Below are positions 18,203 to 64,000 of a stretch of 64,000 bases of DNA, piece by piece (the first letter of the stretch is position 1; the number at the start of each line of letters is the position of its first letter). The notes under the pieces were generated by a model. It had not been told where the DNA came from. It did not search any database and saw only the letters and a program-made list of their open reading frames with translations. The position numbers and the translations under genes were made by a program. The stretch is taken from contig JAHEWK010000005.1 in NCBI GenBank assembly GCA_020740775.1, positions 1,860,001-1,924,000 of the forward strand. Direction: 5' to 3'. Source of the DNA: Ilyonectria destructans. Its lineage: Eukaryota > Ascomycota > Sordariomycetes > Hypocreales > Nectriaceae.

Positions 18203-19204
18203 TTACAGGCTGAGGGTGTTGCCGGCAGTGCCGTAGACCTTGGCCTTGACGCTGCTGGCGCCGTACTTGGTGTAGCTGTAGGGGATGCTGCTGCTCTTGA
18301 AGGAGCCAGCGGGCGCGTTATTTGTGGCGCCGTTGAGGGTAACATCGCTGACGGTGATGGTTCCAGTGGTCTTGGAGTCGACGGAGGTGAGGGCATCAGC
18401 GGAGCTGCTGCTATCGAAGACAGTAGACTCAACAAGGACGCTAGCACCCATGCGGGAGTTCACGCCAGTAGTACCGATGGACAGGTAGTAGTTGTTGTAG
18501 ATGTGGACAGTGCCGAATCGGACGGAGGGGGCACGGGAGTTGATGTTGTACCAGTAGTTGTTGGCATAGGTGACGTGGAGCTTGCCCTTGTCCTCGCTAG
18601 AGTTGCTGTCAGAGTGTCCGACAAGGGACGCCTTGTAGTGGTCGTGGAGGAAGGTGTTGGAGACGGTAACCCAGTCAGAGCCGTGGTTGATGTCAAGGAG
18701 ACCATCATAGTAGTCCTTGCCGTTGTTCTTGTCCGAAGACAGGTCGCAGTGGTCAACCCAGACGTTGGTGGAGGCCTGGATGTTGATGGCATCGCCGTTG
18801 GTGGCCTTGACCTTGGAGATGGCAAGGTTGCGGACGATGACGTTGGAAACACCCTTGATGTACAGACCAACGCCGGAGAGCTTAGCACCGCTAGCACCGA
18901 CAATGGTGGTGTCGGAGGTCACCTTGACCTGGGTAGCACCAGAGATGGTACCCTTAACGTAGACGACCTTGGCGCCGGAAGCGGTGGCAGCCTTGGTGAA
19001 CTGAGCCAGGGTCGAGACAGTGGTGGTGGAACCGCCCTTGCCACCCTTAGTACCGCCGTTCTGAGTGGCGTAACCAATGGTGCAAGTCTCGGTGATGGAG
19101 GCACGCTTGGCAAGAGCGTTGGTAGCACCCTGCTCAATGGTGGGAGTAGGGGCGGCGCTGGCAATGCCAACAAGGGCAAGCTGGAAGATGCTGGAGAACT
19201 TCAT
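18203..19204 (-). CDS. pectate lyase, polysaccharide lyase family 1
   Basis: A single exon from the ATG at 19204 encodes 333 residues; the open frame upstream of it is leader. Residues 1-18 form a signal peptide (MKFSSIFQLALVGIASAA). The PL1 parallel beta-helix motifs are all present: VWVDHCDLSS, DGLLDINHGSDWVTVSN, HDHYKASLVGHSD and RAPSVRFGTVHIYNNYY, the last including the catalytic Arg region. The enzyme cleaves de-esterified pectin by beta-elimination in plant cell walls, outside the cell, with calcium. The length is that of compact fungal PelA/PelB enzymes. A TATATAA sequence lies about 185 bp upstream. A short degraded relative lies at 23.3 kb. Confidence 0.95.
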   Translation of the reverse strand: MKFSSIFQLALVGIASAAPTPTIEQGATNALAKRASITETCTIGYATQNGGTKGGKGGSTTTVSTLAQFTKAATASGAKVVYVKGTISGATQVKVTSDTTIVGASGAKLSGVGLYIKGVSNVIVRNLAISKVKATNGDAINIQASTNVWVDHCDLSSDKNNGKDYYDGLLDINHGSDWVTVSNTFLHDHYKASLVGHSDSNSSEDKGKLHVTYANNYWYNINSRAPSVRFGTVHIYNNYYLSIGTTGVNSRMGASVLVESTVFDSSSSADALTSVDSKTTGTITVSDVTLNGATNNAPAGSFKSSSIPYSYTKYGASSVKAKVYGTAGNTLSL

Positions 19205-21470
19205 TTTGATGTTGGGGTGATAAAAGACTGTAAAGTTTTGTGTTTGTTTGAAAAGACTGTGGGGATGTGCGGAACCGGTCCAGACACGAGAACGAATGTG
19301 ATCAAAAAATGAGAGAAGGGGGAAAGAAGGCTGTGAAGGACTGAGAACTACAGAAACAAAATCTACAACATGGCCGTGGTGGCTGATCTTATATATCTTT
19401 GCGGTACGTGGCGGCTCCGCGCTAGAATTAACCTTACATAGGTATCTTAATTCCATTAGGCTCCATAGCGCCACGATGGAATGAACAAGGAGGTTTCCAT
19501 GGGTCGATGACCAGACTTACACCAGCTTGGGTCCCAGATGCCAGGGAATCGGGGCCAGGGTGCGCGTTGCAGGGGGAAGTTACACCAATAGGAGAATTCT
19601 CCGTTCACGTTCTGGACCTCACTCAACGAAAACGGATGCGTGCCCAGTGCGATTGAACAACACCCTGGCTGTCGATGGGTGATGGGATGAAACGGAGGTG
19701 GGGCCGGGGCGTTCGGCGCTGGACTACGGAGGACGGAGGTTGCAACCCGATCGGGACGAATCCGGCCAGACGTGCTCACTGAATGGCTGGTGGGAGGTTC
19801 ACCCCACTGGGAAAAGCAGCCCAGCGCACCTGCAGGACTTGGCCTGAACGACGTGTTACAGAATTCGGTTTGCGGCTTGCTACAGTGATCCGTTCAGACC
19901 GTTCGCGCGGGATCTAGCTACGGTGCTAAAGTATGGGCTCCCGAGGCTGGAAAACTGCCTACGCGGCCTGCAATGGACAACCACATCAACGCCTCTGTGG
20001 GACTGAAATACAGACTAGGGGTGACGTTCCTTAGCGTAGCGGATTCAATCTTACGCTGTGCAACAAAGCTGCATAACCCTTAATTTTCCTCAAAGCTCAC
20101 GAGGCCTTCATGGACTGTGGGGGATGCCAAGCATGCCACAGGCTGACAGTGTCCCCAGATGCGGTCCCGCCATTACGTCTTCCACAGTCTGCAAGATGTC
20201 TTCTCGGCGGCGCGGCGATCAGAACGCCGCGGTTGCACGAGGGCCAAGACGTGATGCATCCTTGTCGTGGCGGATATTGCAATTCTTGGGTGTGGGGATG
20301 CAGTTGACGGGATGCCAAGAGGACCTGAAATCCCGACGCAGTAGTACGAGTATGCGTAATCAATCAGTAGAAAGAGTGCCTCAGGAATTGGCTATTTCAA
20401 GGGAAACAGAGCTACCAAATTTCCGGTCGTGCCGTGTCAGTTTGCAGACTCGCAAGCCTGTCGACGGACATGCTAGACGGATTCAGACACCGTCCAGACG
20501 GTGAGAACCACAATACCGCCAAAGGATTACTGCGTACGTAGTACGTGGGAGTCTAGTGCGGGCCCATCTAATCCGACAGGGTGGCTCACCGTTCCCCTAG
20601 TCGATATATCGCCAAGTACCAAGTCTACCAGGGGCCCTGGAATCAACCGCTCGATTTGGGTGCGCTACCATGAATGGCCCATGCTACGACACCCTTGATC
20701 ATCTGATGCCACGCAACTTTATGCCATTTAAAGACCCAACAGACCCTGCCGCGGAATGTCAAGACGGATAACACGGCTTCGCTGCCACGGTGCCAAGTCC
20801 TGGACGACCAAAGTCGACGACCGCGGAAGAATTCACTACGCCAGGCTCAAAATTGCTCACCCCTCTCCTGTTTTGGGGGTGACAACATGAATCTTTGTTT
20901 CAGGTGAGTAGCCTTAAAGTTAAAGTTTAGAATTGGCTAGTATGTCGACATCGAAGCTAACATTCGAGTGACGACGACGACGACAGCTGTTGGTCCTTAC
21001 GATATACTGGATTTGGGGTTGACGTTTGAGCCTCCTCGGTTGAGCAGCTCGGACCAATTTTTCCGAACAACTCCCTCAGAGGCAGAAAATAGAGGAGCGG
21101 AAGCCAAGGAATTCCCAGCTTGAAGTCTTGCTGGGTGGGCTCAAGCATACAGAGGCCAAGACGAGAGGCCCAGATGACAAGCTAAGCGCGAAGCCAAGAT
21201 ACAGGCCGAGAATAGGGGCCGAGATGGCAGGCTGATGGCGGACTGGTGAACCTCCTCCTGAGTTCAATTTATCACCAAGATTCGTGTTGGAGTCTCGTTT
21301 CTATCGGCATTCTTCAACCAGCTTCGGGATTCCAATTATGTTCCTGAAACATACACTCGTGTCTTCATACACTCATGGCTTGAAACACTCTTCTTTGCAC
21401 CAACGCGAAGTTCGAACCAATCTAGCGCCAACTACTCTAGTGTTGGCCAAGAGCCCGACTTGACAAATTG
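19205..21470. other. intergenic, no gene recognised
   Basis: About 2.3 kb upstream of pectate lyase and downstream of the PARG-like gene. Short open frames on both strands lack family features. A palindromic run ACGTAGTACGT sits near 20530. Confidence 0.45.
19388..19396 (-). promoter_or_regulatory. TATA-like box of pectate lyase gene
   Basis: The minus strand reads GATATATAAG about 185 bp before the start codon, suiting a strongly regulated, inducible gene. Confidence 0.4.
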
Positions 21471-22898
21471 TCACCCACTTCCCGAAGCCCTTCCTGATAT
21501 CCACTCAAGAATCTCCATCTTCTTCAGCCCCCCCGGGACATCTGACAGCAGACTCCGCAGATCCCGGGCGGACATTCTCTCGCACGTCTTCACCGCCGCC
21601 TCGAATCGATGCCCCATCCCGTGCTGCTCCGGACTCAGCATTACATGCAACTCGACGCCCGCCGCCGAAGCTGCGAGCCACAGCACGATGAGCTTAACGC
21701 CGGGGTCACCGCAGAAGGCACCACATCCCCACAGCCCCGTCCATACGGCACTGCAATCGGGGTACGCAGCGAATCCTGCCACGGCCTTGAGCAACTCGCG
21801 GTCGACGTTTGCCGGCAGTAGGTCGGGCAGTATCTCATCAGATGCCTCCACCATATCCATCTCCAGGGCATCCATGAAGATGAGCCGGCCCCCACGCCAA
21901 GTTCGCACCCATGAGTCGAAGTCCCCCGTAGACGGCGATGACCGAACAATCCAGGAAATATCCCGCCTCTGACCGCTGACGTTCAGTACAGCTCTTGCTC
22001 CGGAGACGGTGATGACAGTGTTTTCAAGGAGGTGTGGTGCGACGAGGACAACGGGACAGGCCTCAGGGGCAATCCCAACAAATATCTCCTCCTGCGTGGC
22101 GGACTGGCCAAACCCGATAACTTTGTTCGCAGAGATGACAGCGGCGCCTTCGGGGCCTTGAACCTCTGGTAGGTGAGACTCTGTATTGTGGTCGTCCAGG
22201 TAATCGACATGCGCTACTCCCAAGGAGACTCCCTCGAGGGACACCTCGTCCTGTTTATGCAGCACGTACGTCACATACCTCCCGGGATCCTCAGGGGCAG
22301 TCTTGTGGTCTTCCATCAAAGCTTTAGCCTCGGGGAGACTCTCAAAATACGCAAACACTGAAGTTAAGTACATCTCGACCGCAGCCGGGTGTCTCTGTCT
22401 CGAAGCGTACCAGATGCCGAAGTCCTGGTATCCATCATCTTGTCTTTGCAAGAGTCCAGAACACAGGAATTGATGGACAACCAAGCAGGCGACTTGGCCG
22501 CGACTCAGACGTAGTAGGCGTCCTAGTTCAAGGAGGTCGAGCTGTCCCTCGGGGAAGTAGAGCGGGAGGTCAAGTGCGATCTCGCGCAGATTAAGCCATG
22601 TCGAGCAGAAAAAGTCTTCTGCCTGAAAGCCATCACCCGCAAGAAAACTCTTCAAGGATCCGTAGTCGTCTCCATGGGTGCCTTCAGCGTTGGCAGCGAT
22701 GGTCTGCAGTCTGTCGATAAGGTGTGTTGCTGATAAGACAGGCTCTTGGAGAAGATGCTGCAACAAAGGCCAGAAGGGAATCCGGCCTGCTTCATCCTCG
22801 TCGACGATGATGTTTTCGGGCAGGTCGCTGAAACGATCGAGGACGCGACAGGAGGGTGAGTTAGGGAGGATGAAGGTTTGGGGTCGCACTTCCATCAT
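21471..22898 (-). CDS. divergent poly(ADP-ribose) glycohydrolase (PARG family)
   Basis: One exon of 475 residues. The order of PARG features is complete: the helical LSRGQVACLVVHQFLCSGL, then ANKVIGFGQSATQEEIF (residues about 258-273), then a region ending VSGARAVLNVSGQ, and finally WTGLWGCGAFCGDPGVKL near the C-terminus, which matches the TGNWGCGAFGGD block of known enzymes. PARG removes poly(ADP-ribose) by cleaving ribose-ribose bonds. The catalytic QEE is intact (Q269-E270-E271). However, the usual triple-glycine loop before it is IGFG here, so activity may be altered. No targeting sequence is obvious. The start at 22898 is the first Met in frame; Met2 is equivalent. Confidence 0.85.
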   Translation of the reverse strand: MMEVRPQTFILPNSPSCRVLDRFSDLPENIIVDEDEAGRIPFWPLLQHLLQEPVLSATHLIDRLQTIAANAEGTHGDDYGSLKSFLAGDGFQAEDFFCSTWLNLREIALDLPLYFPEGQLDLLELGRLLRLSRGQVACLVVHQFLCSGLLQRQDDGYQDFGIWYASRQRHPAAVEMYLTSVFAYFESLPEAKALMEDHKTAPEDPGRYVTYVLHKQDEVSLEGVSLGVAHVDYLDDHNTESHLPEVQGPEGAAVISANKVIGFGQSATQEEIFVGIAPEACPVVLVAPHLLENTVITVSGARAVLNVSGQRRDISWIVRSSPSTGDFDSWVRTWRGGRLIFMDALEMDMVEASDEILPDLLPANVDRELLKAVAGFAAYPDCSAVWTGLWGCGAFCGDPGVKLIVLWLAASAAGVELHVMLSPEQHGMGHRFEAAVKTCERMSARDLRSLLSDVPGGLKKMEILEWISGRASGSG

Positions 22899-37999: not shown

Positions 38000-39013
38000 A
38001 ATTAGGAGGACGGAGACAAGGCAAATTCCCTTCAGGTCATGAGCCGCAATGGCAAGAGGCAATGGACGAGAGGCGCCGCCCTGCATCGCGTTCTGACGAG
38101 GAATCACAAGAATGGTCGGATGGTTCGCGCCTAGGCCCCAAGTTCGGCTGAGAAGGATGCGAGGGGCGCATTTGAACAGTATGTCTAGAGAAATTGTAAC
38201 CATCAACCTAACCTAAGTCTTAAAAGTTAATAAAGGCAAAGCTAAGAACTTTAGCTAAGACTTTAACTAATAATTGCAATAATAATCATAATTTTTGGGC
38301 CAATATTAATAATCCTACGACTAAAATATAAAAATTGATTATAGGACAACAATTTATTGTTCATCCATACTCTATCTAAACGTCTTTGAGATTATATAGT
38401 AGCCCGTCATCTTGGCAATATTGATTGACCAAAGCATGAAATAAGCCGTCTAATTAAGACATCTGTAAGCCCGAGGGGATCGACCCAAACCCAGATACCG
38501 GAATATTCGCATGAGCTAGTGCTCCCCTCCAGGGAATGGGTGATGACACAGGTGCTCGCTAGGCGCATGGAGACTTTGGAATGGAAGCCATCGAAGCCTG
38601 GTCTTGGTCCCAACACGCCATCTGGAGTGCTGTGGCGGTGAATTACCGGCGCCCAAGCCTGGCTCCAGCGACGAAGTGTCCGTCTTGCGGGGCGTACATT
38701 GGGGGAACCTAGGCGAAGGACGACTTAACCTCCGCCGTCACCATCGCATACGGTCGCACATGCACTGCATCCTCTGAGAATCAAGACTCGTCGGCTGCCG
38801 AGACTCTCCGCCACATCAGGCTGCGCATCTGCAGCCCAAACTCCTCACACGTGATGAGCTGAAGTGGTGGCGCCGGCCTGCCTGCCTCGAATACTGCCAA
38901 CCTCCGATTTCCATCGCAACATTTTCGAACAAGTCCTAATCATCTCTATTGGCGCCGATGCTGGCCTGCTGAAATATCACACCGATCGACACACTCCGTT
39001 CCGGATATCGAAC
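38000..39013. other. intergenic with AT-rich block
   Basis: An AT-rich block at about 38215-38400 follows the helicase pseudogene and is consistent with RIP-altered DNA. Otherwise this is the promoter side of the kinase-TPR gene; no gene is seen. Confidence 0.5.
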
Positions 39014-41554
39014 ATGGCGAATCTGAACCGACCCGACGGCTTCACCGACCTGGTGCGGGATTCAAGGCTGCAAGCAACTTTCCGAAGCGACGGACAGCAA
39101 AGCTGCACGATCCACACCCGATCGGCTGGTCATCGAACGAGACAAAGACGAGACATATGGATACACAAACAAGAGCTAGGGTATGGCGGATATGGATCTG
39201 TACAGTTGCAGCTGAAGGAGGCGCCAGATCCTGGTCTGCCACAGTATCGGGCGGTTAAGAGCATTCGTGTGTCGGAGAACGACTTCAAGTCAAAGCGATC
39301 GCAATACGTTCGAGAGCTCGAGTCCCTTGCCAAGTTCTCCCACGAAAAGGTTAGCTATATTATACACACTACTTTACAATTCTTGCAAGCTAACAAACAG
39401 GAATCGCAGTACACGGATTTCTTCGTCAAGTTCAGTGGTTGGTATGCAAGTCCTGGATGGCTTCATATTGCAATGGAGTACTGTGAACTCGGAGACCTGA
39501 AGAAGTATCTCTCTAATGCTCAGAAATGCCCCAACAACCGCTTGCCCGAAGATCAAGTCTTAGACATTGCATCTCAGGTCCTCAATGCCTTGTCAATGAT
39601 GCATGGAGAGCGGTTCGCCCACCGAGACCTCAAGCCGGCAGTAAGACTCCCCTATGCAATAGGCATACACGTTTCAAGATATAATACTTACACCAATATA
39701 CAGAACATTCTCATCAAGAGTCACCCACCAGAACCGTGGTGGGTGAAGATGTGTGATCTTGGTCTCAGCAAGCGGATTGGAGATTTCTCAGGATCTACCA
39801 TGGTGCCCGGAACACGGAATTTCATGCCGCCCGAGATTCTGGGTTTCATTGGAGACTCTAAAGCTGCCGATCCATACTTGGGAGATATGTGGTCTTTTGG
39901 AGAGACAATCTTTCAAGCCCTTACTGGCCAACCTACGTTTGACAACCCGACATCCATCAACAGATACTGCAACAACCAAATCCAATTTCCTGATGCAGCT
40001 CTCAGGGACTTGGAAGTAAATGAAGATGCAATCGGCTTCATTGGTTCAGTAATGAATTCGAATCCATCGAAACGGCTTACGGCAGACGAGGCACTGGGTC
40101 ATTGTTGGATCAAACTGAACACGCGGACGCCACCAGAGGAAGGAGATGTACGCCTTCTAAATGCTTCCGATGAATCTTCTAAGTGGTCTCTAGAGGTACC
40201 ATTCCGACCGCAGATGAACTACGATATGTTGGCGACTGCTAAATGGACAACCATGAGCAGTCATTACGACTCACCAAGCACCATGAGAAATACGGCTCAG
40301 AGTCAAGGAGTACACAAAAGTTCCTCGCAATCACTATCAACGAAAGGGACGAGAGATGATGCGAAAATGCCACCGGTTGAAGATGAGACACCCATCGCCA
40401 GAGAAGGTCGTGATACATCACCAAACAACGAGGGTAATACTATCCAAAACCATACCGAGGATGTGACTCTCCGACCGCAGTTCTTACCTTCGACAAAAGG
40501 CGAGCCAACGAGGAAAACGGAAACGATCCGAGAGGACCCGGTTAGCATCAAAGACTTCGAGAATATTCGAGATATACGTTCACGCGCCGAAACCTACTAT
40601 CGAGAGAAACAGTATCATAGCGCAGAGCAGATGTTCCGAAAGGTTCTTGAGCATGACATAAGGGAACTAGGCAGAGATCATCTTGACACGATTGAAACCA
40701 TGAAGAGGTTGGCTTCTTGTCTTGGAAACCAGAGACAACATGAAGAGGGAGAGGAGATCCTCCGAGAGATATTGCATTTCAGTGAGCAGGTATCAGGGGG
40801 GAAACATCCTAGGACGTGCACTTCTCTTCACCAGCTCGGTCGGTCAGTATATGATCAAAAGAGATATCGAGAGGCAGAAGAGCTCTTCCAGAAGGCCCTA
40901 TCTCTCTGTGAGAAGGTGTTAGGGAGAGAGCATCTTGATACACTACTCACTCAGTACTGGCTTGCTCAATCAGTATTTAGGCAGGAGAGATATCAAGAAG
41001 CAGAAGAGGTCTTCCGAAAGAACCTATCTCTTAGGGAGAAGGTATTGGGCCGAGAGCATCCTGATACACTACTTACTCAGTACTGGCTTGCTCACTCAGT
41101 ATTTAAGCAGAAGAGATATCAAGAGGCAGAAGAGGTCTTCCAAAAGAACCTATCTCTCAGGGAGAAGATATTGGGCCGAGAGCATCCTGATACACTATTC
41201 ACCCAGTACTCCCTTGCTCAACCAGTATTTGAGCAGAAGAGATATCAAGAAGCAGAAGAGGTCTTCCGAAAGAACCTATCTCTCAGGGAGAAGGTATTGG
41301 GCAGAGCGCATCCTCATACACTATTTACTCAGTACTGGATTGCCCAATCAGTATTTAAGCAGAAGAGATATCAAGAGGCAGAAGAGGTCTTCCGAAAGAA
41401 CCTATCTCTCAGGGAGAAAGTATTGGGCAGAGAGCATCCTCGTACATTGGATACCCAGCGTTGGCTGAACACATCGCTTTCCAAAACGGGGATAAAGAAA
41501 AATTCGGGTCCAGTCAGAATTTTGAAGGAAATCTTCGGATCAACCTCCAAGTAG
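39014..41554 (+). CDS. protein kinase fused to kinesin-light-chain-type TPR array
   Basis: Removing two introns (39350-39400 and 39641-39703) gives 808 residues. Start 39014 (MANLNRPDGF) is chosen as the first ATG before the kinase; the frame is open further upstream but only from a GTG. The kinase domain shows the Gly loop GYGGYGSV (56-63), the lysine in YRAVKSI, HRDLKPAN created by joining exons 2 and 3, CDLGLSK in place of DFG, and MPPEILG. A linker follows, then seven 42-residue TPRs from about residue 495. Repeats 3-7 are nearly identical around the motif EEVFRKNLSLREKVLGREHP. Both introns are multiples of three without stops, so unspliced transcripts also read through. Similar kinase/STAND plus TPR proteins are linked to fungal self/nonself recognition; a role here is inferred. 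Confidence 0.88.
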   Translation: MANLNRPDGFTDLVRDSRLQATFRSDGQQSCTIHTRSAGHRTRQRRDIWIHKQELGYGGYGSVQLQLKEAPDPGLPQYRAVKSIRVSENDFKSKRSQYVRELESLAKFSHEKVSYIIHTTLQFLQANKQESQYTDFFVKFSGWYASPGWLHIAMEYCELGDLKKYLSNAQKCPNNRLPEDQVLDIASQVLNALSMMHGERFAHRDLKPAVRLPYAIGIHVSRYNTYTNIQNILIKSHPPEPWWVKMCDLGLSKRIGDFSGSTMVPGTRNFMPPEILGFIGDSKAADPYLGDMWSFGETIFQALTGQPTFDNPTSINRYCNNQIQFPDAALRDLEVNEDAIGFIGSVMNSNPSKRLTADEALGHCWIKLNTRTPPEEGDVRLLNASDESSKWSLEVPFRPQMNYDMLATAKWTTMSSHYDSPSTMRNTAQSQGVHKSSSQSLSTKGTRDDAKMPPVEDETPIAREGRDTSPNNEGNTIQNHTEDVTLRPQFLPSTKGEPTRKTETIREDPVSIKDFENIRDIRSRAETYYREKQYHSAEQMFRKVLEHDIRELGRDHLDTIETMKRLASCLGNQRQHEEGEEILREILHFSEQVSGGKHPRTCTSLHQLGRSVYDQKRYREAEELFQKALSLCEKVLGREHLDTLLTQYWLAQSVFRQERYQEAEEVFRKNLSLREKVLGREHPDTLLTQYWLAHSVFKQKRYQEAEEVFQKNLSLREKILGREHPDTLFTQYSLAQPVFEQKRYQEAEEVFRKNLSLREKVLGRAHPHTLFTQYWIAQSVFKQKRYQEAEEVFRKNLSLREKVLGREHPRTLDTQRWLNTSLSKTGIKKNSGPVRILKEIFGSTSK
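40613..41494 (+). repeat. seven tandem 126-bp repeats coding TPRs
   Basis: Each unit encodes one 42-residue TPR. Units 3-7 are highly similar at the DNA level (for example the recurring CAGAAGAGATATCAAGA), while units 1 and 2 have diverged. Confidence 0.9.
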
Positions 41555-43785: not shown

Positions 43786-44406
43786 GGGACGCTGTAACTG
43801 TCCCAATTGTGAGATTAGTGGGGTCAAGAGCGCTGGGGGTTTCCTCTTCAGAATTGTAGTTTGTAGCAAGTGCAAAGGGATGGCTTATTGATTTCGGTCA
43901 CGCTATACTATCAGATCATGTACGCGGTTGAGATGGCCAATTAGAGCTCAGAATGCTCCGAGGTGGCCGCAACGGATGGTGAGCCCACGCCATCAAAGTT
44001 GCCGTCCTGGTCGACGACTGCCTCTCCAAGTCCAGGCGATAAGATCATGGCTAGGTTTCGGCGTGTTTCGGCGAATATTGCCCTGACGGGATGCGACGTC
44101 ATGACGGGAGGGGGTATTGACAGGCAAGAAATTCCGACTATACTAAAAATGCCCAAGCTTTAAGTGACGTCTTGGCAGATTTTCCCCTCCATGACTGCGC
44201 AGAGTGCGCTGCAGGCAGACAAGGCATAATATCACGACGAATAAAATAACTGGCACCATGACCCATCCGCGGATTCCACCTTTACAACTCCCCGACACTT
44301 GAGGCCCGACGCCCACCGTCCACGAACTATATACTGCGAAAACCCCATCATCGTCCTCGTCTTCCCCCTCGTCTTCCCCCTCATCCTCCGACCCAAACCG
44401 CCCATC
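43786..44406. other. intergenic, promoter of the Saf4/CCDC130 gene
   Basis: The 621 bp between the two same-strand genes end in a CT-rich tract (CTCGTCTTCC repeats, 44355-44390) right before the ATG, typical of fungal core promoters. Confidence 0.5.
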
Positions 44407-45450
44407 ATGCAGGGCTTCAACATGGGACGCTACGTCCCGCCCGACGTCGAGGGCACCACGTCGGGCAACCGCCTGCACGGCAAACACGCCCTCGGCAAGC
44501 GCGCCTCCAAACTTGCCTCGCACGGCGCCCTCACGGTGCGCTTCGAGATGCCCTTCGCCATCTGGTGCTCGTCGTGCCCGCGGCCGACCGTCATCGGCCA
44601 GGGCGTGCGCTTCAACGCCCAGAAGCGCCGCGTCGGCAACTACCTGTCGACGCCCATCTGGGCCTTCCGCTTCCGCCACGTCGAGTGCGGCGGCGACATC
44701 GAGATGCGCACCGACCCCAAGAACACGGCGTACGTGGTCGTTGAGGGCGCCGCCAAGCGCGACACGGGCGAGGACCGCGCGCGCGAGGGCGACAGCGTCA
44801 TCCTGACCGACCAGGAGCGCGAGGCCCTGCGCAAGAATGCCTTTGCGAGCCTCGAGAAGACCATCGCGGACCGCGAGCAGTTGAAGCAGGCGACAGAGCG
44901 GATCGAGGATCTGGAGGAGGCGTCACAGCGCCATTGGGACGACCCGTACACCCAGAACCAGAAGCTGCGGCGCGCATTCCGCGTGGGGAGGAAGAGCCGC
45001 GAGAGCGCCGCTGCGGCAAACGAAGACCTCAAGGACCGCATGAGCTTGGGGATCGACCTGGTGCCGGCAACCGAAGAAGATTCCCGCCGTGCCGCCCTGG
45101 TCGACTTTGGTCCCGTGGACGATACCGCTCAGGACCGCGCCCTCGCCAAACCCTTGTTCGGCGGTGGCTCCAGCAAGAAACCCCAGGCTCCATCCAAAGG
45201 CGTCCTGCTCAAGTCCGAGAAGGAGGTGTCGCGGAGAAAGGAGACACTAGTGTCAGAACTCATAGGCAACACTCGAGCAACCCAGGACCCATTCCTACGG
45301 GATACTCGAGCTGGAGAAACCAAACCACCTGCCAGGCTGCCAGGAGTGAAACGGAAACGCACTCTACAGGAAGATATAGCTCCGGCTCCAAAGACCCTCG
45401 TGCAGGAAGCGAGTGTCTCGACCGGACTGGTGAATTACGACTCTGATTAA
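44407..45450 (+). CDS. Saf4/CCDC130 splicing factor (CWC16 family)
   Basis: One exon from the ATG at 44407 encodes 347 residues. The domain contains ALTVRFEMPFAIWCSSC, GVRFNAQKRRVGNY, STPIWAFRFRHVECGGDIEM and RTDPKNTAYVVVEGA, which place it with CCDC130/Saf4 and not the paralogue Yju2. The zinc site has a CxxC pair, while the second pair is His plus Cys (RHVEC), a substitution that keeps a metal ligand. A charged coiled-coil middle and a C-terminus ending LVNYDSD follow, the latter like the acidic end of CCDC130. The family joins the spliceosome around the catalytic steps. It is tail-to-tail with Ubc8, 421 bp apart. Confidence 0.92.
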   Translation: MQGFNMGRYVPPDVEGTTSGNRLHGKHALGKRASKLASHGALTVRFEMPFAIWCSSCPRPTVIGQGVRFNAQKRRVGNYLSTPIWAFRFRHVECGGDIEMRTDPKNTAYVVVEGAAKRDTGEDRAREGDSVILTDQEREALRKNAFASLEKTIADREQLKQATERIEDLEEASQRHWDDPYTQNQKLRRAFRVGRKSRESAAAANEDLKDRMSLGIDLVPATEEDSRRAALVDFGPVDDTAQDRALAKPLFGGGSSKKPQAPSKGVLLKSEKEVSRRKETLVSELIGNTRATQDPFLRDTRAGETKPPARLPGVKRKRTLQEDIAPAPKTLVQEASVSTGLVNYDSD

Positions 45451-45871
45451 TGAAGGATGAATTAATTGATGAAAAACGGCATGGAACAGCATAGATTATA
45501 TAGTTAAGATACCCCGGCACATTATTATGGTGCAATCCTATTGAAATTCAAATATTCTGCGGTTCTGTCTGCTGCATCCTCGGACGAGGCGAGCAAAGCC
45601 AACTGTAGGATGCCGAAGCTCCTTGTCAATTCCGACTGCTAATCCCCAGCAGTCCTCCAACTTGGTCTTGCCCAACGAATGCCAAAAGCGCAGTGATATA
45701 TTCCTACCTACCTTGATCCCAGGAAACAAAATTCGATCCAACCCAGTCTGGGGTGGAGGCCCGTCGGGGTGGTTGTAACTCCGTCCAATGAAGGCTCCTT
45801 GCCGTGCCTTGATCCCATTACGCCGTGAGAAACAATTGCTCGTCGAGCTAATACGGTGCCGATAGGGCGCT
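45451..45871. other. intergenic, convergent 3' flanks
   Basis: The 421 bp between the convergent Saf4/CCDC130 and UBC8 genes are AT-rich near 45460-45530. No gene is seen. Confidence 0.5.
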
Positions 45872-46875
45872 CTATACATCATCCATCTGGCCCGCGGGCT
45901 CTTCGTCGTCGTCGCCGAAGCTAGCGACCGAGGACAAGTCATCATCATCCTCGCTCTCGGCGCCAGCCTCATCTGCAGCATCCTTGTTGGCGTACTTCTG
46001 CACGTACTCTGTTCCACAGTTAACATTGCGTCGGAGATGAGGATCGACGGGCGTTGCGCACCTTTGACCTTGACATCATAGCTCTTGGGTTCCCTGATCA
46101 ACAAAGCAGCAGCTTCGCCATTGAGGGGATCGGTGGGGTTGGGGTATCGCAGGAGCTGAGGCAGAAAGACCTCGAAAATGTTGATCATATCGAACATGGG
46201 GGACCATGTCTGGTTGATGACGTCGAGGCAGACGGATCCAGACCTGAGGTTCTCGTTTCAGTATCCCCATTTCCGACCAGACCCTTCCAATTTGGATGTT
46301 GAATTTCACTCACAGCTCATCGATATTGGGGTGGAAGATGCGGTTGACGAATCCGATGCTGGGAGACTTGTACGGGTAGGTGTCGGGGAGCTCGACGTGG
46401 ACTTTCCAAATACCACCCTCGAAAGGAGCTGCCAGGTGTCAGCGGACACACCTAGTTGAGGGGCTCTGTATAGTACTGACTTTCGGCCGGGCCCTTGAAT
46501 CGGACAAAGAACTCTTGCCTGGAGCTTCGGTTAGAGGTGGACGAGGTGTCGGTCGGGAGAAACGGCGCTTACACTGCTGCATGTCAGTATATCTACCATC
46601 GTTAGCGCCGGGGGATCTTACTGTTGTCATTAACCAACGTGACTTCATAGTCGCTCATGAGCCTGTATCTGTTAGCGAGTCGCCGTCGAGGTTGCGCAGA
46701 GCTGCATCGTACATCCTGCGACACTGTTAGTACCTCAGACCATATTCCATGGGCAGATTGCTCCGGCGTACTTCATGACCTGAGATCGAGGTCGTGGTCA
46801 GCTTTGATCGCACCAGTGGCCTCTCGGGGGGCCTCGACTCACATCTGTCTCGATCCTGCGGCGTGGGCTACTCAT
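45872..46875 (-). CDS. UBC8: ubiquitin-conjugating enzyme E2 Ubc8 (UBE2H) with micro-exons
   Basis: Nine exons sum to exactly 558 nt, 185 residues: 46843-46875, 46772-46779, 46713-46715, 46622-46662, 46573, 46481-46518, 46314-46428, 46062-46243, 45872-46008. The product starts [20 protein letters not shown], has the HPN block RIFHPNID, catalytic Cys85 in [15 protein letters not shown], and an acidic tail ending QMDDV, as in fungal Ubc8/UBE2H. Ubc8 works with the GID/CTLH E3 ligase in degrading gluconeogenic enzymes. Exons 2, 3 and 5 are 8, 3 and 1 nt long. Without them the frame fails or residues K14-M15 and M29, conserved in yeast (VMKLLMSD, NDSMQEF), are lost. Each flanking intron (48-63 nt) has its own GT donor, branch site and AG acceptor. 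The 1-nt exon is the boldest part of the model. Confidence 0.9.
46573..46573 (-). other. UBC8: 1-nt micro-exon of UBC8 (exon 5)
   Basis: A single T lies between an acceptor CAGCAG and a donor GTAAGC. It forms the middle base of the Met29 codon A|T|G. The intron before has GTAAGA and GCTAAC; the intron after has CTCTAACC and CTCCAG. The alternative is a 4-nt exon CAGT, which would insert one residue and lose the Met. Confidence 0.65.
46713..46715 (-). other. UBC8: 3-nt micro-exon of UBC8 (exon 3)
   Basis: Reads GAT between GTCGCAG and GTACGA. The preceding intron has a perfect TACTAAC branch site and the following one GCTAAC. It completes Lys14 and starts Met15. Confidence 0.75.
46772..46779 (-). 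other. UBC8: 8-nt micro-exon of UBC8 (exon 2)
   Basis: Reads GTCATGAA between CTCAG and GTACGC. It encodes V12, M13 and two bases of K14. Confidence 0.85.
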
Positions 46876-49069
46876 TATTGCGGTAGATGGCGGCGCTGGG
46901 AGTGGGAGTGGGGTTGAAGCGTTATCCAAGGACTCGGGAACCGGTCGAGCGTGCGGTGGTGGAAGCGTAGGCGAGCGGAGGCGGGATAATACTCGGTAGA
47001 AAGATTGAAGCGATTTGGAACTGGCTTCGTGGCTGACGACGGGAAATGGCGAGAAGATGTCGACGTGGTTGAGAGCAGTGAGCGCAGGTGGTGGGTGAGG
47101 GGAGGTGAATCGGCTTCCGGTCCAAGTCACAAGTCACGCGGACCGACCTTGGTGTCGTGGACAGCCACTCGTGCAGGCGGAAAGAGGGGCCGAGTATTTG
47201 CGGGGCTTGTCTTTATCGATAAGTGCCGTTGATAGGTACCTTGTGCGTCCGCATTGAAACGATCATGTCCTCACCACGCCACGTTTCATCCGTCGTCATC
47301 CGTGGACATTACCGCTGAGAAACACTAATAGTGAGGCTGCAGGGCCGGGCATCAAAGCTTGGAAACGACTGCCCAAGCCCTATTACTTCTCTGGGCTGAC
47401 CCCTAACCGGCTCTCTGCTCGCCGAGGATTGCGAAACCAGTGAGCGTCATCCAAAGACACGGCCTATCCAAGCCACGCGCCATCAATATTTGCTCCAAAC
47501 CAAGGCGCCACGTCAACAAAAAGGCGGGGGCTTGTTCACATGCTTTCACAATCGACGAGACAATGTTGCACCAGTGTTGCATTTACGGACGAAGCGGGCA
47601 CTTGAGCTTGTTGACGGAACATGGCTGCTAAATCCAAGTGGCTAGATGGACCCTGTCTTAGTGGGCTGCCAGCGAGTCACAGGCGAGGACTGCGTGGTCT
47701 GTCACTCATCCCTTTCGCAGTCCGAGGCTCCCAATGACATTTCCCCGAGTCTTCCGGCTCAATGATTAATCACAAACGGTAAGTAAGGCACCATTTAGGT
47801 TGGGCCCTGATTGAAGTACTCAGGTACTATGCGTGGGTGATCAACGGTCGGATGCGAGACAACATTCGAGGAAGGGCGCAGAAGTTGGCGGATAATTTAT
47901 GAAGCTTATTTCGAGCACAACATAGCGTATAAGCAAAGAATCATTGTCGCGAGTAGCTGGTCCCAGACAACCCCTATGCATCCCGGTGGAACCAACAACC
48001 TTAGAAGGATCAAGCCTTGGGGAAGCTTCGGCTGCAGACTACAGGACCGCGGTCTTCCCGAAAAGAGGAAATGACCTGTGTGCGAATCAATGGATTCAAG
48101 TTTAGAAGAACTATCCACAGTGTGAACTACCGCGCTTCGTTAACTGGGTTGAGGGAAATGGACGGGATCAGAGCTTCCGAGCCAGGAATGAGGCCGACTA
48201 CCTGAACACACATCAGGTTCCACGGGTAGAGGCTGATGGCATAGGACACTAGTATATTTGTTTAAAAACTACGCGCAAGGCAGCGGGGCCGGGCTCCTGA
48301 TCATACCCTCGTGCAGACCAGTTTGGTATGCTATAGCAAAGCACAAACCTCCTTACTGACCACAATGGGCACTCCTACAGGCGGCTGGAGTGATGGAACA
48401 TGCCAAAAGGAAGACTGCAGTAAGTCGTAGCACTGCCTGCTGGCCTAAGTATGGCATATTCGACGGCAGAATCATTCATTGAGGTGGTGCGCCTTCCTCG
48501 CGCTGCTCATCGCACAGAAAGGCCTTCGCCTTCGAACGCTGTAGCGATGGCCATGGCAGTAGGAATGCAAGTTATGGAGTGCTTTTTGTTTCTCGTGAGA
48601 TAACAATCGATTGCGGATGTTCGCGGTTGGCACCAAACTTTAATTTGTGCGGGAGAAGAGAAATATCGCTGGTTGTCACTTTTCAACAATGCCAACAGCA
48701 TTCCATAGCCCGAATGGGCCTCTGTGGTAGTTGTTTCGTGTCTCCGTAGCCAACCAGTGTATTCACGAAAAGTCTCTGACCGAAATGTAGGCCATTGGAT
48801 GTTGTACAGGCTCAGGGTCCTGACAATGATCATCAGTCTCCGGGCGGGCATCAATGCAGCGAGAAAGGATGGGACCCGAGTTCTTCCAAAACGGCACAGA
48901 TCTGGGACTCCAACTGAAAGGAATAGTCCTACAAGAATTCCACTTGGTTGAGGTTAGGCAGCAACAACGCAGAAAGCCTGCTAACTCCCTCAACTTGTGA
49001 CCAAGGAGCCTGCCTTTGCGTCATACATCAGAGCTGCTATCGATGCCGACGTTGCAAAGTCCATCAACA
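46876..49069. other. intergenic, no gene recognised
   Basis: About 2.2 kb upstream of UBC8 and downstream of the DUF6594 gene. Minus frames at 48507-48993 look degraded and have no identifiable family. Confidence 0.4.
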
Positions 49070-61420: not shown

Positions 61421-63592
61421 CTAGTAGTTTTCATTCATAGACTTGCATAGCTCATCATATTCCCCAGTCGTCCGGGGTGCAGGCCGCGACGTTTCCATGG
61501 CTTCCATGACCATGTCCATCAAGTCGCCCTTCAAACTCTCGTACACCATGCTGACCCAACTTCCAATAGTCTTCTTGTTCTCTGTCGGAAGTCCCTTTTG
61601 AGCATTGTATAGCGGGTCGTCGTCAATTCCGCACTGCGTCGGCACACCCAGCTTCGATCGCACCCAAGTATACAGTTGGGCAGAACCGTCACCCAGCTTA
61701 GTGGCCACATCAACAGGGCGGACGGCCATGTTGGGGTAGAAGATGGATGATGACGTGTCGACGACGGCCTTGTGGAAAGCTGCTCTAAAAACGGCAATGC
61801 TGGAGATTGAGCAATCTGTGTTCTCAGTCGCCAGGAACTGGGTGACGGGCGCCATTGCAGCGTCCACCGTCGGCAAAACGCGATCCTTCCAGGAGCCAGC
61901 GTTGTGGGCATACCAAGCCGACTCAATGACGGGGAATGCAACCTCGGTGAGCTTTCCGATTTGTCCCTCGCTCAATCCAAAGGCATGGAACGGTCCGTTT
62001 TGCGTGGTATCCCTCAATCTGTCGCGCAGAGTCTCCAGGAAAAGACGGTGGCTCGCACGAAGGTCAACCGCCTGGCACGAGATGTAAATGTGGCAAGCGC
62101 ACATATGAGCAACCAGATCCGCGGCCTCCATAGTTCTCCGGGCTGAGAGAAGTGCCATAGAGTTGATGCCCTGGTTGTGCATCTCGGCAGACATGATGTG
62201 GGATGAGACGGGGTGCGCAAGCGCTGCCAGCTCCGTCATGTACGCAGCCATGTTAACGTCGATGCCCTTCATGGTAAAGTTCTCCTTGTCGCTGACGTTT
62301 AGGTTGGCCTCGAGGCCGTTGCTAGTGCAGGGGTTGATGATCTCGCTGACCTGGGAGAAGAGCATACGTCCAATCATCTGCAGCGCCAGGCGCGTCTTGT
62401 CCATGGCAGAGGTGATGACGACGGCCTGGAAATTTCCTCCTGAATAGACCTCTCCCACCGCCTTGCCATCTTGCTCCGATGCATCAACCAAGGGGTTATC
62501 CGACGTGGAATTCAGCTCCACAGAGATCTGTCGCTGGGCCAGAAGGAGGTCCTCCAGGTAAGGCCCAATCCACTGGGGGCTCGTCCGCGTGGAATACCGA
62601 TCCTGCCAGAGTCCCTCGCCGGTTCTCTTTCGGTTATCCAGACCAACGACAAAGCTGGAGCCGCGCAGGAAGCTGCGAATGTTTGCTGCGGCCTCAATCT
62701 GGCCAGGGTGTGGTCGTACAGCATGGATAAAGGGGGTTGCCCACTCAACGTTGCCGCCCATGCTTTCGGATGCGAAGGCCGTCAACATCTGGGCCATAAC
62801 GGCGAGCTGCTGTGCGTCGTGGAGCACAAGACTGGCTAGGGACACGGAGGGCGCAGTGCCGTTAATGAGACCAAGGGCCTCCTTGGGGCCAAGGCCGCTG
62901 GCTGAGAGACCGCTCTGTTGAAGCGCCTCGGATGAAGGCATCACCTTAGCCGCTTGGCCCTCGCCAACCTGCACGAAGATATCGGGGTTCCCGGTTACCG
63001 CGCCAGCAATGTACGACATAGGCATGAGATCGCCCGACGCAGAGATGGTGCCCCGGATCGGCACCAGGGGGGTGATATCGTGATGCAGCAACTTCACCAG
63101 CCTCTGGAGGACCTCAAGCCGGACAGAACTCTGGCCTCGCATGTTCTGGTTGGCGCGGGCGACAATGGCTCCGCGCACCCACTCGGGCGGCATGACGTGG
63201 GAGGGCTCGCGTTCCGAGTTGCTTCCAGGGGCCTTGTCGAGGGATGTGATGATGGCGCTCTGGGTGTGCTGCAGGACACCGATCTGGTTTTCGATCCAGT
63301 CATCGGTGCGCACGTCAGCGCTGCCGCCAAAGCCAGTGTTGACTCCGTACACGACATACTTGTTGGCCAGGTAGTTGTTGAGGGCGTCGACGCTCAGGGC
63401 GATGCGGCGAGCGAGGTCCTCGTCCTGGCTGATCTCAGGCTTAACACCATAGCGGGCCACGGCAATTATGGAGGAAATGTCAAGGCTATTGCCGTCCAGG
63501 ACAATCTTACTCTTGCCAGTCTTGAGATCCTGCAGGCGCCGCCATATACCCAGCGTCGAGGTGGCGTGGGCCGGCGTCTCGAAGGTCTTCAT
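61421..63592 (-). CDS. phenylalanine/aromatic amino acid ammonia-lyase
   Basis: One exon from the ATG at 63592 gives 723 residues, the usual length for PAL. The prosthetic MIO group forms from A185-S186-G187 in GTISASGDLMPMSYIAG. The catalytic Tyr82 lies in VVYGVNTGFGG, and further conserved blocks are VELNSTSDNPLVD and SGGNFQAVVITSAMDKTRLA. The enzyme releases ammonia from phenylalanine (and perhaps tyrosine) to give cinnamate or coumarate. The substrate-selective region reads VLQHTQSAII. The frame is open 77 codons further upstream, but that part looks like leader. PAL in fungi is used for catabolism or secondary metabolites; no cluster genes are visible up to the window edge. Confidence 0.93.
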   Translation of the reverse strand: MKTFETPAHATSTLGIWRRLQDLKTGKSKIVLDGNSLDISSIIAVARYGVKPEISQDEDLARRIALSVDALNNYLANKYVVYGVNTGFGGSADVRTDDWIENQIGVLQHTQSAIITSLDKAPGSNSEREPSHVMPPEWVRGAIVARANQNMRGQSSVRLEVLQRLVKLLHHDITPLVPIRGTISASGDLMPMSYIAGAVTGNPDIFVQVGEGQAAKVMPSSEALQQSGLSASGLGPKEALGLINGTAPSVSLASLVLHDAQQLAVMAQMLTAFASESMGGNVEWATPFIHAVRPHPGQIEAAANIRSFLRGSSFVVGLDNRKRTGEGLWQDRYSTRTSPQWIGPYLEDLLLAQRQISVELNSTSDNPLVDASEQDGKAVGEVYSGGNFQAVVITSAMDKTRLALQMIGRMLFSQVSEIINPCTSNGLEANLNVSDKENFTMKGIDVNMAAYMTELAALAHPVSSHIMSAEMHNQGINSMALLSARRTMEAADLVAHMCACHIYISCQAVDLRASHRLFLETLRDRLRDTTQNGPFHAFGLSEGQIGKLTEVAFPVIESAWYAHNAGSWKDRVLPTVDAAMAPVTQFLATENTDCSISSIAVFRAAFHKAVVDTSSSIFYPNMAVRPVDVATKLGDGSAQLYTWVRSKLGVPTQCGIDDDPLYNAQKGLPTENKKTIGSWVSMVYESLKGDLMDMVMEAMETSRPAPRTTGEYDELCKSMNENY

Positions 63593-64000
63593 GATGGAAG
63601 CTGGAAAGCTGCAGTCGTAGCCAGCAATTAGGACGTCAGCACCCGTTCCCGGTCTTATATTCCGTCTAAGCCCAACGGAGGTGGCGAGGAGGGATGGATG
63701 GAGAAAAGGAGGGTCTGAGGTGGGAAACCGTTGAGTCCACGACGTGGCCCCGGAATGTCGGTATTTATTTTCTGGGGAAATCTCAAAAAAAGCAAGACAA
63801 AACGCCGGAAGTCGGAGCTGCAAGCCCCAATGTAAGACTCAGGAGAAGTCACAGATGGAGATTTATCAGTGGCTGGACCGAATTGGCTTGGGTCTGGTCC
63901 AATGTCTTGGGTCCGTTGCTCGTGGGCGTTTTTTTATGGGAACGGGGCTGGACGGGAGGTGTTTGTGGCTTCCACATGAAAACCCTGGAAAAGGAGATTG
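63593..64000. other. upstream region of the ammonia-lyase gene
   Basis: The 408 bp to the window end contain promoter-side sequence of the minus-strand lyase gene. No other gene is recognised. Confidence 0.4.

Follow-up and report, generated by a model that had tools for sequence, protein, structure and literature searches.

The window, a 64,000-nucleotide stretch of the Ilyonectria destructans genome, carries on its minus strand (46875-45872) a nine-exon UBC8 gene that includes micro-exons of 8, 3, and 1 nt. The exons measure 33, 8, 3, 41, 1, 38, 115, 182, and 137 nt and encode a protein of 185 aa; they sum to 558 nt, the total given in an initial annotation of this DNA. The micro-exon positions proposed there (46772-46779, GAT at 46713-46715, and T at 46573) were reproduced, as were flanking introns of 48-63 nt with GT donors and AG acceptors, a description that introns 1-5 (63, 56, 50, 48, and 54 nt) fit. 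All eight introns are of the GT-AG type and span 48-70 nt. The gene is laid out as follows:

46843..46875, minus strand: exon 1, 33 nt, codons 1-11
46780..46842, minus strand: intron 1, 63 nt, GT-AG, branch motif GCTGAC
46772..46779, minus strand: exon 2, 8-nt micro-exon GTCATGAA, the last 5 nt of which are required by the contig ORF P0004
46716..46771, minus strand: intron 2, 56 nt, branch motif TACTAAC
46713..46715, minus strand: exon 3, 3-nt micro-exon GAT, which finishes K14 and makes M15 with the next G
46663..46712, minus strand: intron 3, 50 nt, branch motif GCTAAC
46622..46662, minus strand: exon 4, 41 nt
46574..46621, minus strand: intron 4, 48 nt, branch candidates GCTAAC and ACTGAC, tandem acceptor CAGCAG
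46573..46573, minus strand: exon 5, 1-nt micro-exon T, the middle base of the M29 codon
46519..46572, minus strand: intron 5, 54 nt, branch motif TCTAAC
46481..46518, minus strand: exon 6, 38 nt
46429..46480, minus strand: intron 6, 52 nt
46314..46428, minus strand: exon 7, 115 nt
46244..46313, minus strand: intron 7, 70 nt, without a match to the branch motif used
46062..46243, minus strand: exon 8, 182 nt
46009..46061, minus strand: intron 8, 53 nt
45872..46008, minus strand: exon 9, 137 nt including the stop codon, acidic tail

The reading frame is lost when exon 2 or exon 5 is omitted; without exon 5, the coding sequence is 557 nt long, with a frameshift and internal stops. Omission of exon 3 costs one residue, and omission of all three micro-exons leaves in-frame stops. 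No Rfam match was found within positions 45500-47600 of the window. Tail-to-tail with UBC8 lies a gene of the Saf4/Yju2 family of splicing factors (44299-45450, plus strand; PF04502, 235.4 bits), with no link to the micro-exons implied. Elsewhere in the window, Pfam matches were obtained to an aromatic amino acid lyase (ORF 61421-63823, minus strand), a poly(ADP-ribose) glycohydrolase (21471-22898, minus strand), a pectate lyase (18203-19474, minus strand), and a protein kinase followed by tetratricopeptide repeats (38864-41554, plus strand).

The predicted 185-aa protein contains a UBC domain (PF00179, UQ_con) scoring 131.6 bits against a cut-off of 27, with the match starting at residue 12. 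In a phmmer search of solved chains, it aligned without gaps to residues 1-183 of yeast Ubc8 (239.4 bits), which together with human UBE2H (229.1 bits) was its nearest relative; the top-scoring chain from another subfamily by name, yeast Ubc13, reached 96.8 bits, with two otherwise-named chains in between. Ubc8/UBE2H is the E2 enzyme that serves the GID/CTLH ubiquitin ligase in yeast and man.

To place the micro-exons among all possible splicing patterns, chains across exons 1-6 were enumerated with GT-AG introns of 40-130 nt, yielding 30,942 stop-free chains, 9,110 of which have the phase required by exon 7. The 8-3-1 chain ranked first among these 9,110 against both yeast Ubc8 (221; runner-up 211) and human UBE2H (148; runner-up 147, a one-point margin), in support of the earlier proposal that the N-terminal half can be rebuilt with these three exons. 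When exons shorter than 9 nt were barred, the best score against yeast Ubc8 dropped to 185. Shuffling the exon 1-4 interval 2,000 times never gave a score as high as that observed for the 8-nt and 3-nt part, and this part of the structure is far from chance. For the single T, the exon 4-6 interval was dinucleotide-shuffled 5,000 times; 80 of the shuffled sequences (1.6%) allowed an in-frame T exon, and one flanked by the signals YAG and GTRNG arose in 1 of 5,000. Thus, a bare T alone is a 1.6% coincidence, and it is its splice signals, along with the evidence from P0004 and the homologues, that carry the 1-nt exon.

P0004 is a 173-aa ORF on a 2,660-nt contig (source lgn, 13 member sequences) that is identical to residues 13-185 of the predicted protein and runs unbroken across seven intron sites. 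It holds both M15 and M29, the latter between N28 and Q30. Since methionine has one codon, M15 fixes G-AT-G, and with it the GAT exon, while M29 fixes A-T-G and the T exon; M29 within a contiguous ORF indicates that exactly one nucleotide is kept at exon 5. The suggestion that K14-M15 and M29 are restored at the spacing of yeast Ubc8 also holds. A protein search of the genome to which the window belongs (71.7 Mb, 74 contigs) returned a single high-identity UBC8 locus, with three exon matches on contig C45; none of the 18 candidates that it scored was an intronless copy. Because the ORF of P0004 is not obtainable from a genomic contig and no intronless copy appeared among those candidates, its continuity over the introns indicates that the P0004 contig is likely cDNA. 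P0004 begins at M13, so that support for exon 1 and the initial 3 nt of exon 2 comes from relatives; intron 1 would contribute an in-frame TGA if retained, and this start could reflect either such retention or a truncated contig.

Conservation of the residue-15 and codon-29 joints was surveyed in homologous proteins. The first search considered the best 120 of 5,742 matches; two added searches with N-terminally altered queries, which favor altered models and one of which was a form carrying CAGT as exon 5, brought the number of listed homologues to 223. Genera were assigned to Pezizomycotina or to other groups, with the placement of five species looked up, and P0214 was placed in its group by its description; proteins derived solely from the contig collections lgn, jgi, ena, and merc were treated as contig ORFs. 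Among the best 120 of 5,742 matches in the first search, the codon-29 joint was intact in all 30 contig ORFs, and the residue-15 pattern was matched by 29 of them, the 30th being P0004, in which the residue is present and the protein starts at M13. The annotated Pezizomycotina models from the same best 120 of 5,742 matches had an intact codon-29 joint in only 10 of 87 cases (77 altered), and both joints were intact in 6 of 87. Among the 223 listed homologues, residue 15 and the codon-29 joint were intact in 58 of 58 contig ORFs, and the codon-29 joint in 17 of 135 annotated Pezizomycotina models. Outside Pezizomycotina, 27 of the 30 annotated proteins in this set matched the codon-29 pattern, and the remaining three (P0192, P0212, and P0213) differ only in the residues preceding an uninterrupted MQEF. 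Two proteins bearing the names of Quercus suber and Pyrus communis (P0001 and P0103) were found among the fungal UBC8 matches by full-length score, and their N-termini look plant-like. No fungal UBC8 DNA of relatives was found in the collections genome_contigs, where only three prokaryotic relatives were identified, or viral_contigs.

Tandem acceptors of the NAGNAG kind, such as the CAGCAG ahead of exon 5, raise the alternative that splicing uses the first AG, making exon 5 the 4-nt CAGT and replacing Met with Thr-Val. The CAGT chain stays in frame and reached second-tier scores of 206 (yeast) and 145 (human). However, P0004 shows M29 rather than Thr-Val, in agreement with the preference for a 1-nt T in the initial annotation, and the corresponding sequence NDNTVQEF occurs in none of the 223 listed homologues, even though one query was the CAGT form itself. 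Branch-site geometry also bears on the choice. A branch motif was found in seven of the eight introns, including introns 2-5, where motifs had been noted previously; in intron 4, two candidates are present, ACTGAC at 10 nt and GCTAAC at 28 nt from the intron end. The distance in the six other motif-bearing introns is 9-18 nt (12 nt in intron 5), a range that 10 nt matches better, suggesting that intron 4 more likely branches at ACTGAC than at the GCTAAC named earlier. From ACTGAC, the second AG of CAGCAG lies at 10 nt, within the range of the other introns, and the first AG, which CAGT needs, at merely 7 nt, outside it; the T is therefore favored over CAGT. Use of CAGT as the main form is accordingly very unlikely, and CAGCAG (46574-46579) could give rise to CAGT as a minor in-frame Thr-Val isoform.

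The protein deposited at NCBI for I. destructans (P0008) departs from the predicted UBC8 at two joints only and was reproduced letter for letter from the window DNA by skipping GAT and opening exon 6 at 46567, directly after an AG within the intron-5 donor GTAAG that serves as its acceptor. This model reads 48 nt of intron 5 as coding and thereby gains 16 residues. Its GT-AG sites do exist in the window, yet it is extremely unlikely to be the correct one: P0004 conflicts with it, it drops a residue found in 58 of 58 contig ORFs and adds 16 found in 0 of 58, and its UQ_con match is both lower-scoring (124.5 bits, vs. 131.6 for the prediction) and later in starting (residue 37 vs. residue 12). 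P0008 is accordingly a mis-spliced reading of the same genomic sequence, and its letter-for-letter recovery places the window in I. destructans or a very close species (Nectriaceae). P0008 also bears on whether the gene only appears fragmented through an assembly error, given that small sequence errors can mimic micro-exons. That explanation is scarcely credible, in that the separately deposited P0008, which may share the assembly, was reproduced from the same letters, including the 48 nt of intron 5, and the models of relatives break at the same joint.

The altered models of relatives fall into recurrent types. One, NDN-S-x-QEF (23 of 135 annotated Pezizomycotina models), has K, M, E, T, Q, L, A, or G at x; all of these can be encoded by a codon with a final G, which is what a 4-nt shift of the donor GTNNGT after AACA, to its second GT, would be expected to give. 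The seven amino acids that lack such a codon were found at x in 0 of 23 models, yet account for 29.8% of the residues in these proteins. A Tuber model (truffle, Pezizomycetes) belongs to this type. NDN-M-Y-A/V (7 of 135, with names from Fusarium, Beauveria, Hortaea, Salinomyces, and Aspergillus, representing three classes) is expected if the acceptor before T is used and the donor GTAYGY is then read as coding, and NDN-K-F (14 of 135) corresponds to an acceptor moved by 5 nt. At residue 15, two models (P0012, Beauveria, and P0157, Pyrenophora) contain K-M-Y, the expected outcome of reading on through GAT and the donor that follows it; two further K-M-Y matches lie elsewhere in the protein. The N(x)RQEF type (8 of 135) is poorly explained, and 23 of 135 models were left unclassified. 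The NDN-R-QEF models P0063, P0087, P0174, P0180, P0196, and P0207 would need a G at the position of the T, which could reflect either a different 1-nt exon or a modeling error.

The apparently incorrect models differ from one another, yet fall into classes that a missing single base would produce. Such error classes, read from protein models, hint at an old 1-nt exon with a wide distribution in Pezizomycotina. There is good reason to think, though with less assurance than for the gene structure itself, that this exon (and probably the 3-nt exon as well) predates or arose in the ancestor of Pezizomycotina and would have been kept in most classes.

As to how these exons are joined, there is high confidence that the UBC8 mRNA consists of the nine exons, including those of 8, 3, and 1 nt, and that its introns are most likely defined whole and removed consecutively. 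Exon 5 is flanked by two spliceosomal introns, each with its own donor, branch motif, and acceptor; such short introns with complete signals would most likely be recognized as whole introns (intron definition), without exon bridging. A single base separates the acceptor of intron 4 from the donor of intron 5, making simultaneous spliceosomes implausible and two-step removal likely. Introns 4 and 5 would then most likely be excised in succession, either removal leaving an ordinary junction for the other. In the pre-mRNA, pairing to U1 includes a bulge and has an energy of -7.2, compared with -4.9 once intron 4 is gone; these values do not discriminate between the two orders of removal.

The median intron of F. 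graminearum is quoted as 56 nt (PMC12940212). Stwintrons, or nested introns, of related fungi resemble introns 4 and 5 in that abutting introns are excised consecutively, and under such a reading the T would not be a real exon. Introns 4 and 5 differ from stwintrons, however, in that the elements of both are whole and the base between them stays in the mRNA. Tried by definition, the stwintron candidate was rejected, as no donor, branch site, or acceptor is interrupted and the T lies between the two introns; this alternative is exceedingly improbable.

Single-nucleotide exons have precedents. The initial annotation knew of none in fungi, a statement made outdated by the 1-nt exon of Fusarium CYP621A published in February 2026 (PMC12940212; Nelson and Syed 2026). 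CYP621A, a P450 of unknown function whose exon G was confirmed with reads, is according to its authors the first fungal nuclear gene with a 1-nt exon (PMC12940212). Like that of UBC8, it is a nuclear 1-nt exon from Hypocreales that is needed for the frame and a conserved motif and was overlooked by annotation; in contrast, the UBC8 exon is a T, belongs to a core E2 gene, lies near 8-nt and 3-nt exons, and shows protein-model signs of conservation across Pezizomycotina. The plant precedent cited initially, Arabidopsis APC11, was found as described, although it is not the only one, VPS55 also being known in plants (PMC8831610). APC11 has a constitutive 1-nt exon (PMC4674806; Guo and Liu 2015), for which its authors favor intron definition with introns removed successively (PMC4674806). 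The two cases thus share a 1-nt exon in a ubiquitin-system gene and the same favored mode of removal, whereas that of APC11 is from a plant, is an A located 333 nt into a 422-nt interval, and was construct-tested (PMC4674806). In land plants, VPS55 (Yu et al. 2022, PMC8831610) has an old, conserved 1-nt exon that is absent from reference annotations, with mispredicted N-termini (PMC8831610), a pattern suggested for UBC8 as well; conservation of the VPS55 exon was established from DNA and RNA-Seq (PMC8831610), whereas that of UBC8 is deduced from protein models. In Trichoderma, Xlr2 (PMC11121469) provides another hypocrealean micro-exon missed by gene models, although that exon acts as a sugar-dependent switch within a transcription factor (PMC11121469). 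Other literature on 1-nt exons comprises a placozoan mitochondrial case and fungal mitochondrial mentions. No report of a micro-exon in UBC8 was found by title or abstract in the open-licence PubMed Central literature. What is new here is a 1-nt exon in UBC8 and the presence of three micro-exons in one core gene, 1-nt exons themselves being already known; the UBC8 exon is probably notable for its age as well.

If the proposed ancestry is true, the UBC8 exon would be among the oldest single-nucleotide exons known, and most mold UBC8 protein models in public databases would be wrong near the N-terminus. The structure described here gives a corrected N-terminus for an E2 enzyme and for its I. destructans record, and the gene models of relatives, each failing differently, form a ready test set for annotation programs. 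As a small, conserved, and intron-dense gene of genetically tractable molds, UBC8 would allow direct tests of both the order of intron removal and the minimum spacing of splice sites.
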